A stretch of DNA of 20,265 bases, from IMG/VR virus record IMGVR_UViG_3300049440_000138, positions 1 through 20,265 of that record, one strand, 5' to 3'. Shown here piece by piece: positions 9,849-19,800 of the stretch (position 1 is the stretch's first letter; every line of letters begins with the position of its first letter). A model generated the notes under the pieces. It did no database searches, was not told the origin of the DNA, and saw only the letters and a program-made list of their open reading frames with translations. This stretch comes from a virus. The position numbers and the translations under genes are program-made.

Positions 9849-10253
9849 CTACTTGGTGCTGGGGAAGACGTCCCGGCAGGCTGCCGGGGTTTCCGTGATG
9901 CGGTGCAGCGTGAACTTAGTGCCGGAGATGTGCGCCAGGATCTCGGCCTCGCTTATCGAGTCGACGGTCAGCGGGCCGTCCTCTGTATAGATGAAGGCGC
10001 CGTCATACCGTATGTCGCCGGCGGACACGATTCCGCCGCCGATACCTCGCACGCACCCTATCCCGCGCCCGTCAGCTCTCATCAGGAGGGTGACAGTGCC
10101 GCCTTGCGGCGTGCCCGAATACATGCCTGCATAGGGGAACGGCCTAGGCGTTGCCGTGATTACACCGCTCGCATCCGGGGGAGTGAAAGTGCACCCGGGC
10201 GCGATGAGGGCCAGGACCAGGACTATGGGCGCGACTGCCCGCCGGCTAGTCAC
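9849..10253 (-). CDS. Lipoprotein co-encoded with the repressor
   Basis: The 134-residue product has a lipoprotein signal: basic MTSRR, hydrophobic core APIVLVLALIAPG, and C21 as the acylation site (IAPGC; the -3 residue is Ala rather than the usual Leu). The mature part is a small beta-rich domain (GTVTLLMRADGRGIGCV, GGIVSAGDIRYDGAFIY) with a further Cys pair candidate (C51 region and C127 region) that could form a disulfide in the periplasm. It starts with GTG overlapping the repressor stop (GTGA), so it would be made in the lysogen. Surface lipoproteins in this place often alter the host envelope or block superinfection; here that is inference. Confidence 0.75.
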   Translation of the reverse strand: MTSRRAVAPIVLVLALIAPGCTFTPPDASGVITATPRPFPYAGMYSGTPQGGTVTLLMRADGRGIGCVRGIGGGIVSAGDIRYDGAFIYTEDGPLTVDSISEAEILAHISGTKFTLHRITETPAACRDVFPSTK

Positions 10254-10765
10254 TCGAGGAAATCGTCCATCGCGGTCCCGGGCTCTCGGCCCGGGGTTCT
10301 AGGGCGCTTCTTGTGCTCCTGCTTCAAGGGGACATGGCCGAATGAGCTCTCGATCTGAGCATCGCTCACCCCACGCAGTGGCTTCTGACCGAGTTCCTTT
10401 CGGGTGATCTGGTTGGCCTGGAATAAGGCATGCATATCGTTGATCAGCTCTCGCTGCTGATGCGAGAACAGCCCGGAAAATAGATGGACCAGGATCTCGG
10501 CTTTGCCTGAAAGTTCATAGCCTGCTCGAGGCTGCTCTGCGATATCCGGGCCAGCATCCAGGGCGCCCCTCGGTAGCTCGAGCTTGCCCTCGACGTGTCG
10601 CGCGATGCGCTCACCCATGTTGCGCTTCGCGTTCAGCAGCTGCCAAAGGTAGGCATCGCTCCGCTCGAGCACGCGGCTCATATCAGCGATCCGGCCCCTG
10701 AATCTGTTTTCCAGGAGCTGCTTCAAGTTCGCCCGGCGGGTGTCGCCGGGCTCATTCGGTGCCAT
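10250..10765 (-). CDS. C1-type repressor, helix-turn-helix, no protease domain
   Basis: ATG at 10765 (MAPNEPGD) is preferred over an upstream ATG at 10831 because the latter would lie inside the operator at 10826-10842. The 171-residue product has an N-terminal XRE-like helix-turn-helix (about residues 12-60: NLKQLLENRF, ADMSRVLERSDAYLWQLLNAKRNMGERIARHVE). The C-terminal half (about 85-171) is helical and basic and lacks the Ser-Lys S24/LexA protease domain. Induction therefore probably does not rest on RecA-stimulated self-cleavage but on an antirepressor or another partner. It is divergent from the Cro-like gene with shared operators between them. Confidence 0.8.
   Translation of the reverse strand: MAPNEPGDTRRANLKQLLENRFRGRIADMSRVLERSDAYLWQLLNAKRNMGERIARHVEGKLELPRGALDAGPDIAEQPRAGYELSGKAEILVHLFSGLFSHQQRELINDMHALFQANQITRKELGQKPLRGVSDAQIESSFGHVPLKQEHKKRPRTPGREPGTAMDDFLE
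10277..10295 (-). other. GC-rich hairpin near the end of the repressor gene
   Basis: CCCGGGC/GCCCGGG form a perfect 7-base stem over a 5-base loop, ending about 24 bases before the GTG of the lipoprotein gene. It could reduce or pace translation into that gene or cause partial transcription stop. It is also simply coding sequence, so its role is unproven. Confidence 0.35.
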
Positions 10766-10781
10766 ATCGGTCAGCGTACGC

Positions 10782-10797
10782 GCGCAATTGCTAGCCT
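10782..10797 (+). promoter_or_regulatory. Phage operator, right site 1
   Basis: The plus strand reads GCGC-AATT-GCTAGCCT: the GC-NNTT-GCTAG core is kept but the GTG extension is lost, so it is the most degenerate copy. It lies 17-32 bases before the repressor ATG, where it could control the repressor's own promoter. Confidence 0.5.
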
Positions 10798-10812
10798 GAA
10801 ACGAGCAAAAGC

Positions 10813-10841
10813 TTGCCTTTTCGTAAAGCATTTGCTAGTGT
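10813..10841 (+). promoter_or_regulatory. pR-like early promoter of the right operon
   Basis: TTGCCT (10813-10818), a 17-base spacer and TAGTGT (10836-10841). The same -10 and spacing occur in the pL-like promoter. The expected start, 6-8 bases after the -10, falls at or next to the ATG of the Cro-like gene. Confidence 0.6.
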
Positions 10842-10842
10842 T
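10826..10842 (+). promoter_or_regulatory. Phage operator, right site 2
   Basis: The plus strand reads AAGC-ATTT-GCTAGTGTT and shares the 12-mer TTTGCTAGTGTT exactly with left site 1. It covers the -10 of the pR-like promoter. It lies 44 bases, about four helical turns, from right site 1. Confidence 0.7.
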
Positions 10843-10848
10843 CGGCCG

Positions 10849-11079
10849 ATGAAGCTCTGCGACTACCTGAAGGATCTATCCATCGAGGAGCGCGCGGACT
10901 TCGCGAAGCGCTGTGACACCTCTCCCGACTATCTCTGGCAAATCGGCGACGGCAGACGCAAGCCCAAGGCCGCGCTTTGCATCGACATCGAGCGCGAAAG
11001 CGACGGCAAGGTGTCCTGCGAGGAGCTGCTCCCCGAGGCCGACTGGGCCTATATTCGCCGGCGAAAGGTCGTCGCGTGA
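10849..11079 (+). CDS. Cro/YdaS-like DNA-binding protein
   Basis: The 76-residue product has the pattern of Cro/YdaS-type helix-turn-helix proteins: LCDYLKDLSIEERADFAKRCDTSPDYLWQIGDGRRKP, in which residues about 12-45 form the helix-turn-helix, followed by AALCIDIERESDGKVSCEELLPE. ATG at 10849 fits the domain start; the in-frame upstream ATG would be inside the promoter. No Shine-Dalgarno stands before it and the predicted transcript starts at about the ATG. It is the first rightward gene and would oppose the divergent repressor at the same operators. Confidence 0.8.
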   Translation: MKLCDYLKDLSIEERADFAKRCDTSPDYLWQIGDGRRKPKAALCIDIERESDGKVSCEELLPEADWAYIRRRKVVA

Positions 11080-11795: not shown

Positions 11796-12398
11796 GTGAG
11801 CGCAACCAAGCCTGTTCTCCAGGCGTTAGCCGTGGTGTGCGAGCTCACGGGCACGCATCTTTCCGAACCAGCCACTCGGGTGATGGCCCGCGATCTCGCT
11901 GCGTATCCAGAGGCTCAGGTGCTTGGGGCCTTGGACCGCTGTCGCAAGGAGCTTCGCGGGCGCTTAACGCTCGCCGATGTGCTGAGTCGTCTGGATGATG
12001 GTCGACCTGGCCCGGAAGAAGCGTGGGCGATCGTGGCGCCCGCTCTTGCCGACGAGCGGATCACAATAGTCTGGACCGAGGAAATGGCGCTCGCCTCCGG
12101 ACCCGCGAGCGCGATCATCGGGGATCCGGTGGCCGCCCGCATGGCATTCCTCGAGGGCTACCGGCGCATGGTCCAGCACGCCCGAGATGCTCGCGAGCCG
12201 GTCAAGTGGTCGCCGTGTCTCGGATGGGATGTCGGCGGGCGAGCCGGGCCGCTGCTCGATGCCGCGCGCAAAGGCCGGTTGTCAGGCGCGCATGTGGCCG
12301 GACTCTTGCCCCATCGTGAGGATGCGGCGCCAGAAGTCGCGGCGCTGCTGAAACCACATTCCAAGCTGCCAGCCAGCGTGAAGCAGGAGGCGGCTTGA
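11796..12398 (+). CDS. Phage protein beside the replication gene (putative helicase-loading role)
   Basis: GTG at 11796 follows GGGGAGGG by 6 bases. The 200-residue product has an N-terminal helical part (VCELTGTHLSEPATRVMARDLAAYPEAQVLGALDRCRKELRGRLTLADVLSRL, residues 14-66), a PEEAWAIVAPAL stretch, and a conserved RMAFLEGYRRMVQHARD followed by PVKWSPCLGWD. These blocks recur in phage proteins encoded directly before DUF1376 replication genes. Position suggests replication, perhaps a helicase partner, but there is no P-loop, so it is not an AAA+ loader of the DnaC type. Its stop overlaps the next start by TTGA. Confidence 0.6.
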   Translation: MSATKPVLQALAVVCELTGTHLSEPATRVMARDLAAYPEAQVLGALDRCRKELRGRLTLADVLSRLDDGRPGPEEAWAIVAPALADERITIVWTEEMALASGPASAIIGDPVAARMAFLEGYRRMVQHARDAREPVKWSPCLGWDVGGRAGPLLDAARKGRLSGAHVAGLLPHREDAAPEVAALLKPHSKLPASVKQEAA

Positions 12399-13279
12399 AC
12401 TATTACCGCCGGTACGTCGGGGATTTCCAGCGGGACACCGGGCACTTATCCCTGACGCATGTAGGGGCCTATGACAGGCTGCTTGATCACTACTATGCGA
12501 CCGAGGGTGCGCTACCGGATGAGATCGACGTGCTGTGCCGTATCTGTAGGGCGGTGTCTGACCAAGAACGGGCTGCAGTGCGTGAGATCGTGGACCACTT
12601 CTTCCCTGTCTGGAAGGACAAGAAACGTCACAATAACCGCGCGGATCATGAGCTTGCTGTTTCGAGGCAGGCGCGGGAGAACGGGAAAGAGGGTGGGCGC
12701 CCTAGAAAAACCGGAGACCCAACCGGAGCACAAACCGGAATAGAAACCGGAAGTATAACCGGCGACATAACCGGAAAGGGGGCCGGATCGGGACAACCAC
12801 CAACCACCAACCACCAACCACCAGCCTCCAGCCTCCAGCCTCCAGCCTCCAGCCTCCAGGAAGGTCAACCCCCTGCGTCCGGGGCTTCGCCCGCGGCCGC
12901 CCGCAGTTCCAGAAAGTCGAACGGCAAGGACCACAACCCCAAGACCGCGGCCACCTGGGACGCATATCGGACAGCCTACGCGTCGCGCTACGGAACCCCG
13001 CCGGTCAGGAACGCGACTGTGAACGCGCAGCTCGCGGGCTTCGTGAAGCGCATCGGGGCTGAAGAATCACCGGGTGTGGCAGCGTTCTATGTCGGACACA
13101 GCCGTGGCCTCTACGTCTCGGCCAAGCACGCGGTGAATCTTTTGCTCAGGGATGCAGAAGGCCTGCGCACCGAATGGGCGACAGGATCCAAGGTCACCGA
13201 CACCCAGGCCAGGCAGTCGGACCAGACCGCGACCACAGGCGCTGTTTTTCAGAAGTTGATCGCAGAAGCAGACGGATAA
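12395..13279 (+). CDS. DUF1376-family replication protein with internal repeats
   Basis: The start is TTG at 12395, overlapping the upstream stop (TTGA) behind AGGAGG. Residues 1-80 are a DUF1376 domain (NYYRRYVGDFQRDTGHLSLTHVGAYDRLLDHYYATEGALP, then DHFFPVWKDKKRHNNRADHE), found in phage replication-initiator-like proteins. A low-complexity linker (about 95-185) is made of T-G-x-x repeats and then PPASSLQ repeats, both caused by DNA repeats beneath. The C-terminal domain (about 195-294, TWDAYRTAYASRYGTPPVRNATVNAQLAGFV) is a helical unit usual for these proteins. The layout of DNA-binding domain, repeat-bearing linker and C-terminal domain mirrors lambda O, whose gene holds the origin. Confidence 0.75.
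   Translation: MNYYRRYVGDFQRDTGHLSLTHVGAYDRLLDHYYATEGALPDEIDVLCRICRAVSDQERAAVREIVDHFFPVWKDKKRHNNRADHELAVSRQARENGKEGGRPRKTGDPTGAQTGIETGSITGDITGKGAGSGQPPTTNHQPPASSLQPPASSLQEGQPPASGASPAAARSSRKSNGKDHNPKTAATWDAYRTAYASRYGTPPVRNATVNAQLAGFVKRIGAEESPGVAAFYVGHSRGLYVSAKHAVNLLLRDAEGLRTEWATGSKVTDTQARQSDQTATTGAVFQKLIAEADG
12709..12792 (+). repeat. Iteron-like array, 12-bp period: candidate replication origin
   Basis: CCGG begins at 12711, 12723, 12735, 12747, 12759, 12771 and 12783, exactly 12 bases apart. The first six units begin with perfect AACCGG; the seventh is GGCCGG. Four of the six perfect copies continue AACCGGA with different following bases. The stretch is richer in A than its surroundings. 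It encodes the T-G-x-x linker of the DUF1376 protein. Confidence 0.6.
12794..12859 (+). repeat. Two adjoining heptamer repeat tracts
   Basis: Four perfect CAACCAC units (12794-12821) and, after the triplet CAG, five perfect CCTCCAG units (12825-12859). Unit length 7 is not a multiple of 3, so three units encode seven residues (PPASSLQ) and any change of one or two units would shift the frame of the replication gene. Confidence 0.9.
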
Positions 13280-13938: not shown

Positions 13939-14078
13939 CGCACTGGGAAGAAGAACAGGCGGAACAGCGCCGGCGTGCCGAGGATAATGCGCAAGGAACC
14001 ACGTTCCTGATTCTCCTGGTAGCCGCAGCTTTCGTCGTCGCGATGTTGCGACAATTTCTCGTGTGGGCGTGTTCGTGA
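13935..14078 (+). CDS. Small membrane protein, 47 aa
   Basis: GTG at 13935 overlaps the upstream stop (GTGA) and its own TGA overlaps the RusA GTG in the same way. Residues 1-20 are charged (EEEQAEQRRRAED) and 23-39 (TFLILLVAAAFVVAMLR) form one transmembrane helix. Both overlaps and the membrane helix support a true gene. Function unknown. Confidence 0.6.
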   Translation: MTHWEEEQAEQRRRAEDNAQGTTFLILLVAAAFVVAMLRQFLVWACS

Positions 14079-14575
14079 AGATCGTCGTTCCCTATCCGAT
14101 CAGCGCCAACGCCTATTGGCGCACGGCCGTCGTGAAAGGCCAGCGCCTGGCACGGGACCAGTCCCCCTACGCGAACACCTACGTCAGCGAAGAGGCGCGG
14201 CGGTACAAGCGCCAGGTGAAGATCGCAGCTTTCGAGGCCGGGATCCGGGAGCCGCTCGCCGGGCGCGTTTCGCTTTCGCTCGAACTCTATCCGCATCGTC
14301 CGATCGACTGGGAAAAGCGGGCTCGCCGAGATCCAATGAATTGGGACGACGACGTTCGCTGTATCGATCTTGACAACGCGCTCAAGGTTCTCATCGACGC
14401 GCTGAAAGGTGTCGCCTACAAGGACGACGCCTGGGTGCGCAGGATCTCGGCCGATCGCATGGAGCCCGACCAGAGCGGCGAGCGCGCTGTCGTGGTCGTC
14501 GAGCCGATCCGGCGTGAGAGCCCGCAGCCTCCACTTTTCAGTTCAACGGGATCTGCGTTTCGGCAGGTCCATTGA
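14075..14575 (+). CDS. rusA: RusA-type Holliday junction resolvase
   Basis: GTG at 14075 is preferred because it overlaps the previous stop (GTGA) and gives the usual N-terminus (MKIVVPYPISANAYWR). The conserved RusA order follows: SEEARRYKRQV (residues 38-48), then D98 and D100 with N101 in IDLDNALKVLIDALKGV (97-113), and D117/D118 (KDD). These aspartates match the metal-binding residues of RusA, which cuts four-way junctions. At 166 residues it is longer than the usual 120 or so because of an insert (IDWEKRARRDPMNWDDDV) and a C-terminal tail. It would resolve recombination or replication intermediates made by the left-arm enzymes before packaging. Confidence 0.88.
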   Translation: MKIVVPYPISANAYWRTAVVKGQRLARDQSPYANTYVSEEARRYKRQVKIAAFEAGIREPLAGRVSLSLELYPHRPIDWEKRARRDPMNWDDDVRCIDLDNALKVLIDALKGVAYKDDAWVRRISADRMEPDQSGERAVVVVEPIRRESPQPPLFSSTGSAFRQVH

Positions 14576-14603: not shown

Positions 14604-14867
14604 ATGACGACGAATACCGAGAAAGACAAACGCAGGAAAAGGGACGCGCTGCGCAGAGCGGCCGAGCAGGAGACAAAGCACCAGCACGAGCTCGCGATCG
14701 CGAAGGCCGAAAGCCGTAACTCCGGCGTCAAGGATGGGCGCCAGCTCGGTGCGAAGCAGATCCGCGATCTGGTCCTCGAGCGCGCCGGCAGCCTTTACAA
14801 GCAGGGCAACGACGTCGCAGCGGATGCGGTGCGCGAGGCGCACGGCTTGCTACCGACAAGCGTTTAA
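14604..14867 (+). CDS. Hypothetical phage protein, 87 aa
   Basis: ATG at 14604 has GAGAGGG 7 bases upstream. The product is very basic at the start (KDKRRKRDALRRAAEQE), then helical, with SGVKDGRQLGAKQIRDLVLERAGSLYKQGNDVAADAVREA. It looks like a nucleic-acid-binding or DNA-associated helical protein, but I know no family. Its TAA stop lies inside the palindrome GCGTTTAAACGC. Confidence 0.65.
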   Translation: MTTNTEKDKRRKRDALRRAAEQETKHQHELAIAKAESRNSGVKDGRQLGAKQIRDLVLERAGSLYKQGNDVAADAVREAHGLLPTSV

Positions 14868-14871
14868 ACGC
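14860..14871. repeat. Palindrome GCGTTTAAACGC
   Basis: A perfect 12-base palindrome that contains the stop codon of the 87-residue gene. Its ten central bases, CGTTTAAACG, recur at 19811-19820, also just behind a stop codon. Confidence 0.6.
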
Positions 14872-14881
14872 GAAAGGCGCC

Positions 14882-14971
14882 GTGAGCACGGAAGAGCTGA
14901 TGACGATCAGGGACCTCGCCGGCTTGGCAGTCCTGCTTGTGGTCGTCATCGGCATCTTTTTCGGAAAATGA
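14882..14971 (+). CDS. Very short membrane peptide, 29 aa
   Basis: GTG at 14882 opens a frame whose TGA overlaps the ATG of the radical SAM gene (ATGA, 14968-14971). The product has one hydrophobic helix (LAGLAVLLVVVIGIFFG) after a charged start STEELMTIRD. The overlap and composition support it. Confidence 0.55.
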   Translation: MSTEELMTIRDLAGLAVLLVVVIGIFFGK

Positions 14972-15792
14972 CAGAGGCATTCATTCCCCTGTCGAGCCTG
15001 AGGTCCGATGGCGTGTCGGTGCGCGGGTGCTCGTATATCTACGCGCCTCGAGGACAGGCCGGCGAGTACTCCGCGCTGGCGGCCAATCCCTATCGCGGCT
15101 GCGGCCACAAGTGCGTCTACTGCTATGTCCCCGCGGTCCTTCGCATGGAGCGTGCCGAATTCGACGCCGGCGCCGTGCCGCGGGAAGATTTCCTCGAGCA
15201 CCTCGAGAAGGACGCGAAGAAGTACCAGGCGGCCAAGATCACCGAGCAGGTGATGCTGAGCTTCACCACCGACGTCTACAACCCGGTCGACACATCGATC
15301 ACGCGTGCAAGCTTGCAGATCCTGCAGGCGTACGGCATGGGGATCTGCGTGCTCACAAAAGGTGGCAGCCGCGCGCTTCGCGATCTGGATCTCTATCGCC
15401 CCGATCGCGACGCCTTTGCATCGACTCTGACGAGCCTCGATGATCGTTTTTCATCGAAGTGGGAGCGCGCCGCGCAGCTCCCCGAGGACCGAATCGCGAC
15501 GTTGCGCTATTTCCACGAAAAGGGAATCTTTACCTGGGTAAGCCTCGAGCCGACCCTCGATATCGAATCAAGCCTCGAGATAGTCAGGCAAACGCACAGC
15601 TTCGTCGATCTGTTCAAGATCGGACGCGCGAACTATCTCCCGATGACGAAGACTGCGGATTGGCGCGATTACACATTGCGGATGATCGAGCTCTGCCAAC
15701 GGCTCGGTGCGAAGCATTATGTCAAGGAGGATCTGCAGCGCTGGCTCCCGGCCGGATATCACAACCCGCGGCGAGTGCCGCAGCACCATTGA
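14968..15792 (+). CDS. Radical SAM protein, spore-photoproduct-lyase-like
   Basis: The ATG overlaps the micro-peptide stop (ATGA). The 274-residue product has the CxxxCxxC cluster motif at C45, C49 and C52 (RGCGHKCVYCY), which binds a 4Fe-4S cluster for radical chemistry, preceded by NPYRG. Later elements of the barrel are MLSFTTDVYNPVD (about 94-106), GICVLTKGG and FTWVSLEPTLDIE. This order is that of the SPL (DNA photoproduct repair) branch of radical SAM proteins, which is widespread in phages under the same loose name. The substrate is not known; repair or modification of nucleic acid is inference. It does not carry the C-terminal SPL cysteine that I would expect for true spore lyase. Confidence 0.8.
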   Translation: MTEAFIPLSSLRSDGVSVRGCSYIYAPRGQAGEYSALAANPYRGCGHKCVYCYVPAVLRMERAEFDAGAVPREDFLEHLEKDAKKYQAAKITEQVMLSFTTDVYNPVDTSITRASLQILQAYGMGICVLTKGGSRALRDLDLYRPDRDAFASTLTSLDDRFSSKWERAAQLPEDRIATLRYFHEKGIFTWVSLEPTLDIESSLEIVRQTHSFVDLFKIGRANYLPMTKTADWRDYTLRMIELCQRLGAKHYVKEDLQRWLPAGYHNPRRVPQHH

Positions 15793-17688: not shown

Positions 17689-18020
17689 TGGAAAAAAATC
17701 TGAAGCTGGTGCAGCCGGCGGCGACCGAATCGACGCCAGGGACTGCGCCCGAGCTCGTCATGCCAAGCCACTTCAAGGCGCCGCAGAAGGCGGCGTGGAA
17801 GGATCTGTTCGAGAGCACCGGCAGCGCGCTCCACACGAAGGAAAACCGCTTCACCTTCGAGATGGCGGCCGTCCTGATGGCGAAATTCAGGTCAGGGAAG
17901 GCGATGAATGCGACTGAGACGAAGGAGTTGAAGAAGCAACTCGTCGAGCTCGGGCTACGGAAGGACGACGAGGGAGGCGCGCCGAAGAAGTCGAAGAATG
18001 CCGGCAAGTATTTCAGCTGA
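17688..18020 (+). CDS. terS: Terminase small subunit, P27-like
   Basis: ATG at 17688 overlaps the HNH stop (TGATG). The 110-residue protein has the P27-family order: a disordered start, MPSHFKAPQKAAWKDLFESTG, a helical core (TKENRFTFEMAAVLMAKFRSG) and ATETKELKKQLVELGL, ending in a basic KKSKNAGKYF. It binds the packaging site and stimulates the large subunit, whose gene overlaps it by 23 bases. Its family call rests on this pattern and the neighbour. Confidence 0.8.
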   Translation: MEKNLKLVQPAATESTPGTAPELVMPSHFKAPQKAAWKDLFESTGSALHTKENRFTFEMAAVLMAKFRSGKAMNATETKELKKQLVELGLRKDDEGGAPKKSKNAGKYFS

Positions 18021-19800
18021 CCCAGTCCTCCAGTACGCGCAGGCCGTCGTCGACCGGCGCATCGTGGCCGGGCCGCTCGTACGGAAGGCCGGCGAGCGGC
18101 ACCTGGCGGATCTGGAGCGCGGGCCCGGGCGAGGCCTGATCTGGAGGCCGGATCGGGCGCTCCGCGCGATCGAGTTCTTCGCTGATGTTCTGCGGCTGCC
18201 GGACGTCGAGAAGGATCCGGTCTCGGGCGACGAGATCATCCATTTCGAGGATGCCGAGCCGTTCAAGCTCGACCTGTGGCAGCAGTTCGTAGTCGGGTCC
18301 CTGTTCGGGTGGTATTGGGACGACGTGGCCCGCCGGTTTCGGGTGGGTTACATCGAGGTCGGAAAGGGGAACGGCAAGACTCCGATGGCCGCAGGCATCG
18401 GCCTCTACATGCAGAACGCGGACGGTCAGCCAAAGGCCGAGTGCTATGCCGCGGCCGCCGTCAAGGATCAGGCGAAGATCCAATACCGGGACGCGGTGAA
18501 CATGGTCCAGGCGAGCGAGGATCTGCGCGAGCTGGTGGAGCAGCACGGCGAGAAGGAAGTCTACAATCTGGTCAATCGGAAGACCGGGAGCTTCTACAAG
18601 CCGATCAGCGCCGAGAAGCGAGGCCTGGACGGAAAGCGCGTGCACTACGCCGGGATCGACGAGGTGCACGAGCACACGAACGATCTCGTGTGCAACAAGA
18701 TGCGCGCCGGAACGAAGGGACGCCGCAGCGCGCTCATCCTGGAGATCACGAATAGCGGCTTCGACCGGACAACGGTCTGCTACCAGCATCACGAGTACTC
18801 CGACCGCGTGCTCTCAGGCCAGGTGCCGCTCGCCGATTCCGATTCCTGGTTCGCCTATGTCTGCAGCCTTGATGAGGGCGACGACCCGATGGTAGACGAG
18901 GCCTGCTGGCCGAAGGCCAACCCGAATCTCGGGGTCTCGATCCAGACTCGATACCTGCGCGACCAGGTGAGCGAAGCGCGCGGGATGCCGAGCAAGGAAA
19001 GCATCGTCCGGAGGCTGAATTTCTGCCAATGGGTGGACGCCGAGAGCCCGTGGATCGACAGCGACCTGTGGCGCGCCTGCGAGAAAGATTTCGACCTCGA
19101 GGAGCTGCGCGGGCGCCGCGGCTATGGCGGCCTCGACCTTTCGGGCACGCGAGATCTGACCGCACACGCGATGGCTTTCCAGCGCGAGGACGGCGGCGTC
19201 GATGCGTTCGTGGAATTCTGGACGCCGGCAATCACGCTCGCCGAGCGCTCGAAAGCAGACAAGGTGCCCTACGACGTTTGGGTGAAGCAGGGGCATGTGC
19301 GGGCGACACCAGGTAGAGCGGTCGACTACGCATTCGTCGCGCAGCGCCTCGGAGAGCTGAAGGAGATCTACGACTTCGACTCCGAGGCCTTCGACCCGTA
19401 CCGCATCAAATATTTTGAGACGGAGCTCGCCGAGGCCGCGATCGAGTTACGCCTGGTGCCGCACTCGCAGGGCTACTTCAAGGCGAGCGACAAGGAAGGC
19501 AAGGAGAAAGCGAAGGCCTCTGGCGAAGAGCCGGCTCCGGATCTGTGGATGCCGCGATCTGTCGAGCTGCTCGAGGACCTCGTGATGAAAGGGCTCTTGC
19601 GCGTGAAGTTGAACCCGTGCCTGCGCTGGAATAGCGCGAGCGCGGTATTGAAGCCCGATCCGAAGAACAATCGGATCTTCGACAAGTTGCGCTCGAAAGG
19701 GCGGATCGACGGAATCGTGGCGCTCGCGATGGCGATTGGCCTTGCGCTCAACGGAGAAGCGGAAGCACCGAAGACGGAGCCGCAGCTCTTCTTCATCTGA
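17998..19800 (+). CDS. terL: Terminase large subunit, HK97/Terminase_1-like
   Basis: The 600-residue protein has the motor and nuclease parts of a packaging terminase. Walker A is EVGKGNGKT (residues 120-128), Walker B is AGIDEVHEH (218-226) with D221/E222, and the nuclease begins at GYGGLDLSGTRDLTA (375-389, metal-binding D380) with DPYRI (D466) as another core residue. The length is normal for this family. ATG at 17998 lies within the small-subunit gene (23-base overlap), as often seen. It pumps DNA into preformed heads through the portal and cuts it. This is the most secure call in the window and places the phage among HK97-like siphophages. Confidence 0.95.
   Translation: MPASISADPVLQYAQAVVDRRIVAGPLVRKAGERHLADLERGPGRGLIWRPDRALRAIEFFADVLRLPDVEKDPVSGDEIIHFEDAEPFKLDLWQQFVVGSLFGWYWDDVARRFRVGYIEVGKGNGKTPMAAGIGLYMQNADGQPKAECYAAAAVKDQAKIQYRDAVNMVQASEDLRELVEQHGEKEVYNLVNRKTGSFYKPISAEKRGLDGKRVHYAGIDEVHEHTNDLVCNKMRAGTKGRRSALILEITNSGFDRTTVCYQHHEYSDRVLSGQVPLADSDSWFAYVCSLDEGDDPMVDEACWPKANPNLGVSIQTRYLRDQVSEARGMPSKESIVRRLNFCQWVDAESPWIDSDLWRACEKDFDLEELRGRRGYGGLDLSGTRDLTAHAMAFQREDGGVDAFVEFWTPAITLAERSKADKVPYDVWVKQGHVRATPGRAVDYAFVAQRLGELKEIYDFDSEAFDPYRIKYFETELAEAAIELRLVPHSQGYFKASDKEGKEKAKASGEEPAPDLWMPRSVELLEDLVMKGLLRVKLNPCLRWNSASAVLKPDPKNNRIFDKLRSKGRIDGIVALAMAIGLALNGEAEAPKTEPQLFFI

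Follow-up and report, generated by a model that had tools for sequence, protein, structure and literature searches.

Iteron plasmid origins of the Rep_3 type are built from evenly spaced direct repeats that are read by a winged-helix initiator. Origins that lie within a gene have been described in phages: gene O of lambda contains four 18-bp iterons together with a 38-bp AT-rich tract (PMC3349717; PMC7466680), and oriL of SPP1 is located within gene 38 (PMC6316719). The Rac prophage of Escherichia coli K-12 carries an active origin, oriJ (PMC3945230), and encodes YdaU, a DUF1376 protein (PMC10044804). An initiator role for YdaU already exists as an annotation and is not new – NCBI names some relatives 'phage replication initiator YdaU family protein'. 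NCBIfam has no model for these DUF1376 proteins. In the part of the literature that we covered, we found no earlier description of a DUF1376-family origin, and the one mention of DUF1376 appeared in a gene list only.

Here we analyze an IMG/VR virus record of 20,265 bp (hereafter the window, meaning the whole stretch of DNA analyzed). We describe a repeat array within its DUF1376 gene that is very probably this phage's own replication start site, with a lambda-like build.

A DUF1376 gene with a repeat-encoded linker

The gene layout of the window is of the temperate-phage type (Table 1). A radical SAM protein gene is also present in the phage early region (14734-15789), and a 761-aa open frame on the minus strand (689-2974) has several helix-turn-helix matches along its length (HTH_17, HTH_23, MerR-like), possibly representing a multi-HTH protein.

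Table 1. Genes, repeats and protein domains of the window, with positions numbered from its first base.
Feature	Position	Strand	Evidence
Repressor-like gene	10250-10831	minus	
YdaS/Cro-like gene	10813-11079		
phrog_6028 gene	11796-12398		
DUF1376 replication protein gene, 294 aa, TTG start, holds the whole element	12395-13279	+	ORF list, PF07120, PHROG
DUF1376 domain (residues 2-88), winged-helix-like by prediction and the proposed reader of the iterons	12398-12658	+	Pfam; AlphaFold2
Basic tail NGKEGGRPRK, GGRP class	12680-12709	+	
Six iterons AACCGG at 12-bp spacing (12709, 12721, 12733, 12745, 12757, 12769)	12709-12774	+	
Degenerate seventh unit GGCCGG, in register	12781-12786	+	
Heptad tract 1, (CAACCAC)x4.3, top strand C-rich and G-poor	12794-12823	+	
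Heptad tract 2, (CCAGCCT)x5.6	12821-12859	+	
C-terminal domain, residues about 178-280	12926-13234	+	phrog_11527; tblastn
RusA gene	14063-14575		
Terminase gene	17998-19800		

The DUF1376 protein, which has a 100% match in loci L002 and L003, matched PF07120 with an E-value of 1.3e-23 and 83.6 bits (curated cut-off 30.1), and its PHROG matches were annotated 'primosomal protein'. At E <= 1e-3, Pfam returned DUF1376 alone for this protein, with no lambda O family and no Rep_3 match. An AlphaFold2 model of the DUF1376 domain built from 93 sequences reached a mean pLDDT of 91.8; the full protein, modeled without an alignment, gave a poor result (pLDDT 45). A Foldseek search with the domain model returned no match at E <= 1e-3, and comparison with solved structures gave weak matches (best Z 5.5), mostly to winged-helix domains that included those of ORC and DnaD-N. 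Since these matches are weak though mostly winged-helix, we tentatively assign the DUF1376 domain a winged-helix-like fold.

The C-terminal domain is common to phage replication proteins with other N-terminal domains (identified by tblastn in F116, Parlo, LESphi3 and others; loci L007-L031). Several of these (L008, L024, L029 and similar) have short-repeat linkers at the same place (EQEQEQ, GQGQGQ). In the nearest relative by domain (L006, 4001-5059), DUF1376 is followed directly by an inserted T5orf172 domain, and there is no iteron array. In the window protein, the array and the heptads that follow it encode the linker between the two domains; an earlier note on this DNA had placed the array there, and Pfam and PHROG domain positions agree.

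Organization of the AACCGG array

The earlier note, made from the sequence of the window alone, reported six AACCGG and seven CCGG at exactly 12 bp. A count of positions confirmed both, with the seven CCGG copies falling at 12711 + 12n. Of the extent that it gave, 12709-12792, the start holds; the array ends at 12786, because the last CCGG occupies 12783-12786. AACCGG as such is not unusual in number (10 copies in the window, 7.5 expected). A run of four CCGG with exact 12-bp spacing occurs nowhere in the window except at the array, and none of 100 dinucleotide shuffles produced one.

The array is translated as K-T-G-D-P-T-G-A-Q-T-G-I-E-T-G-S-I-T-G-D-I-T-G. All six threonines are encoded by ACC, and the codons that precede them (AAA, CCA, CAA, GAA, ATA, ATA) all end in A – a joint probability of about 8e-10 under phage codon usage. 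Consistent with this, 200,000 synonymous redraws with phage codon usage never produced more than four AACCGG. Permuting the linker's own codons gave 4.96 expected sites (p 0.25), a test that is uninformative for the window linker because it holds almost no other codons to deal. Comparing the units with one another, we found the six core columns to be 100% identical and spacer positions 9-12 to be only 13-20% identical in pairwise comparison. Identical cores with near-random spacers exclude a recent tandem duplication, bearing out the earlier argument that recent duplication of a peptide repeat does not explain the array.

GC content is 0.55 in the array, 0.65 in the heptad tract and 0.63 in the window. 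By GC content of the array and heptads, we did not find an AT-rich unwinding tract beside the array of the kind present in lambda; a strand-asymmetric tract lies there instead. No exact DnaA box was found near the array, and one-mismatch matches occurred at chance level, the nearest being 281 bp past the heptad tract.

The DNA repeat is conserved independently of the peptide

Repeats in a coding sequence could reflect the protein, not the DNA: a disordered linker may gather short repeats unopposed, at the peptide level or by slippage, leaving a DNA period that has no function. The linkers are indeed low-complexity, and CCAACCA-type heptads also occur in tandem outside phage replication genes (L034, L039, L041). 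Conserved cores with near-random spacers in the window argue against this explanation, and further evidence comes from relatives. We collected 200 ORFs, reduced them to 130 representatives at 85% identity and retained the 122 with a linker long enough for analysis.

These 122 linkers contain 278 AACC[CG][AG] sites, compared with 179+-7 when synonymous codons are permuted within each linker and 82+-8 when codons are redrawn from codon usage. Pairs of sites spaced by 11 or 12 nt numbered 136 (59+-5 by permutation; 14.5+-3.5 by redraw), and spacings between sites peaked at 11 (83) and 12 (45), then at 22-23 and 34. Sites occupy all three reading frames (65/97/116). Individually, 83 of the 122 linkers were significant for repeats at p<=0.05 by codon-usage redraw, and about a third were not. 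A motif-free analysis gave lag peaks at 7, 11, 12, 14, 22, 23, 34 and 35 nt, which were present also in 61 linkers without AACC sites. The peaks belong mainly to the linker, being much weaker or absent in flanking 180-nt stretches; the domain-side flank shows a small lag-11 excess (15 versus 7), possibly from boundary error.

The reading frame of the repeats provides the most direct separation of DNA from peptide. Loci L214 and L247, whose DUF1376 domains are 75% identical, have an AACCGG/AACCGA array of 12-bp period in common, together with the heptad stretch that follows it (GGACATCCTCCAACC...), yet they read the array in different frames, as T-G/T-E in L214 and as K-P/Q-P/E-P in L247. The earlier note had proposed aligning related DUF1376 genes and had named, as the outcome that would count against it, relatives that keep the T-G peptide and lose the DNA period; we found the opposite, with the 12-bp period kept where the peptide changes. 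Many relatives have a core of AACCCA at 11 bp, a pitch that rotates the frame so that successive units code for different peptides – in L191 the units read T-Q, E-P, N-P and T-Q. A clean array of this type, with four AACCCA at 11 bp, is found in phage zth2-2 (L355). In L004, which is closer to the window, E-T/K-T recurs every 6 nt; ACC predominates among the threonine codons that keep the 12-bp register, and the two that do not are ACT. In 60 independent pairs, where a residue is unchanged its third codon position is identical more often in cores (79%) than in spacers (61%; Fisher p 1e-7) or in the domain (56%). The frame change, the frame-rotating pitch, the codon choice in L004 and the conserved core third positions each run counter to a peptide-level or slippage origin of the repeats, which we consider unlikely. 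Selection acts on the DNA of the array, not on the peptide that it encodes.

We also scanned viral contigs for AACCGG at 12 bp and obtained 120 stretches, mostly low-complexity and unrelated to replication, among which DUF1376 was found only in one group (L063/L081/L090/L131/L139/L151). Cores in this group lie in TTCAAC units with a different tail and their AACCGG may be convergent, so we dropped it as evidence of frame change and the frame argument rests on L214 and L247.

A strand-asymmetric heptad tract follows the iterons

The top strand of the heptad tract is 51% C and 14% G, and the heptads are kept in a DNA alignment of relatives. Periodicity of 7 bp was detected in 69 of the 122 DUF1376 linkers, versus 28 expected. 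The heptads carry CCA every 7 nt (CCAACCA and CCAGCCT in the window; CCAGACA and CCATAAG in relatives). Such repeats, of a length that is no multiple of 3, are found 3' of the array in more than half of the DUF1376 linkers.

Rho-loading (rut) sites have a C-rich, G-poor make-up. The composition of the heptad top strand resembles theirs, and the tract could accordingly be read as a rut site or as part of an RNA structure. However, predicted folding of the stretch is no stronger than that of shuffled sequences (z 0.06), iterons are also found as inverted pairs (e.g., AAACCCAGTGGGTTT), which suit a protein that binds duplex DNA, and a terminator within an essential early gene would be costly. We regard an RNA element as very improbable.

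The N-terminal half and the array are exchanged as a unit

Natural recombinants indicate which parts of the gene move together. L005 differs from L025/L026 in the N-terminal half and the array, and identity is 98% from L005:4490 onward, a point just 3' of the L005 heptad tract. In E. coli, the similarity of L362 (K-12 ydaU) to L363 breaks off 15 bp before ydaU and resumes 496 bp into the gene, past the linker repeats, and unrelated N-terminal domains occupy the interval. In these sequence comparisons, the predicted DNA-binding half and the array travel as one cassette.

Breakpoints just 3' of the array would also be expected if the repeats served as the recombination joint for N-terminal domain swaps. 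However, swap partners carry different arrays, so the array is not their shared homology, which lies outside it. We consider a recombination joint highly improbable.

Cores vary among relatives while the pitch is retained. At least two AACC[C/G][A/G] sites were found in 58 of 68 proteins with a GGR(P) tail at the end of the DUF1376 domain and in 3 of 54 with other tails (Fisher p 4e-20, uncorrected for kinship). In the TNR and RW classes the association between tail and core has some circularity, since core-like DNA encodes the tails of these proteins. Linkers without AACC have other cores at the same pitch, including ATGCGAACGCA-like, ACGAATCGT-like and GTCACG-like cores and GAAAGC (L189). 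On the domain tree, motif types are clustered yet undergo 27 changes (47 when shuffled), which indicates that cores have changed repeatedly.

It is possible, though we lean against it at present, that DUF1376/YdaU proteins are a large family of phage initiators whose iterons follow a readable code. Under such a code, the core would be set by the end of the domain (GGRP with AACC[C/G][A/G], ARW with ATGCGAACGCA, TNR with ACGAATCGT and RRxRERR with GTCACG), the pitch would be fixed at 11-12 bp, domain and sites would form one cassette, and the heptads would act as a 7-nt ruler for single-strand loading.

A proposed replication origin

Because relatives conserve the repeat as DNA and not as peptide, a replication origin is very probable. 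The specific arrangement that we infer, and consider likely, is a theta origin of the lambda O kind. Each AACCGG would be a double-stranded site for the winged-helix-like DUF1376 domain, so that the protein would bind within the part of its own gene that encodes its linker. With one site per 12 bp, about one helical turn, several protomers could sit side by side. Strands would open at the C-rich, G-poor heptad tract, where one strand would be held, and the C-terminal domain would recruit a helicase or its loader. Theta replication would then start at the array, as it does with O at ori-lambda.

In relatives, the gene next to the DUF1376 gene encodes DnaB, a primase/helicase, or a DnaC-like or ATP-binding YdaV protein. 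We recognized no helicase or loader gene by Pfam or PHROG among the window genes tested, so the host helicase may serve this phage.

The same array could instead be an operator, at which a phage or host protein controls transcription of the early operon and not the start of replication. Evenly spaced sites for a winged-helix protein suit autoregulation too, and the same data would be expected. The arrangement argues for an origin: an in-gene site between two domains, beside a strand-asymmetric tract and, in relatives, helicase or loader genes, is the layout of the lambda and SPP1 origins. We judge an operator distinctly unlikely. The candidate-origin reading of the earlier note is supported, and on sequence evidence it keeps the word candidate; the heptad tract and the differences in core between subfamilies were absent from it.

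If this reading is correct, the widespread but functionally uncharacterized DUF1376 protein, known in E. coli K-12 as YdaU, gains a concrete job and a DNA target. Origins would be predictable in over a hundred phages by sequence alone, and initiator-origin specificity would become a testable code. Joint exchange suggests why such sites might lie within genes – recombination swaps the reader and its sites together. Coding-frame evidence also offers a way to separate DNA-level signals from peptide repeats within genes.

Comparison with known replication systems

Iterons of the Rep_3 type usually lie outside the coding region, measure about 20 bp and are accompanied by DnaA boxes, whereas those of the window are in-gene, have a 12-bp pitch and have no such box near. 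With neither a Rep_3 match nor an exact DnaA box, the array does not fit an iteron plasmid origin of this type.

YdaU of the Rac prophage shares DUF1376 with the window protein, and its gene neighborhood is RacR-YdaS-YdaT-YdaV. Unlike in the window, repeats in the ydaU linker are weak (three copies of TGTTCA at 33 bp, or 3 x 11, with one inverted copy). These TGTTCA repeats are a weak candidate array near oriJ.

In SPP1, as proposed for the window, where binding is predicted, the sites of the origin-binding protein (gp38) lie inside its own gene, and helicase and loader genes are nearby (PMC6316719). SPP1 differs in that its unwinding element is AT-rich and that it has oriR as a second origin, and we found no Pfam domain common to the two proteins.

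The layout also resembles the origin of lambda and its Stx phage relatives, where initiator-bound direct repeats lie in the middle of the initiator gene, with a special tract adjacent, in the early operon (PMC7466680, PMC3349717). The window differs from lambda in its 6-8 bp core, 12-bp pitch and C-rich heptad tract, and its protein was not matched to lambda O in Pfam. In-gene origins are known from lambda and SPP1; judged against the literature covered, what is new here is the protein family, the short cores at an 11-12 bp pitch, the variety of those cores and a heptad tract in place of an AT-rich one.
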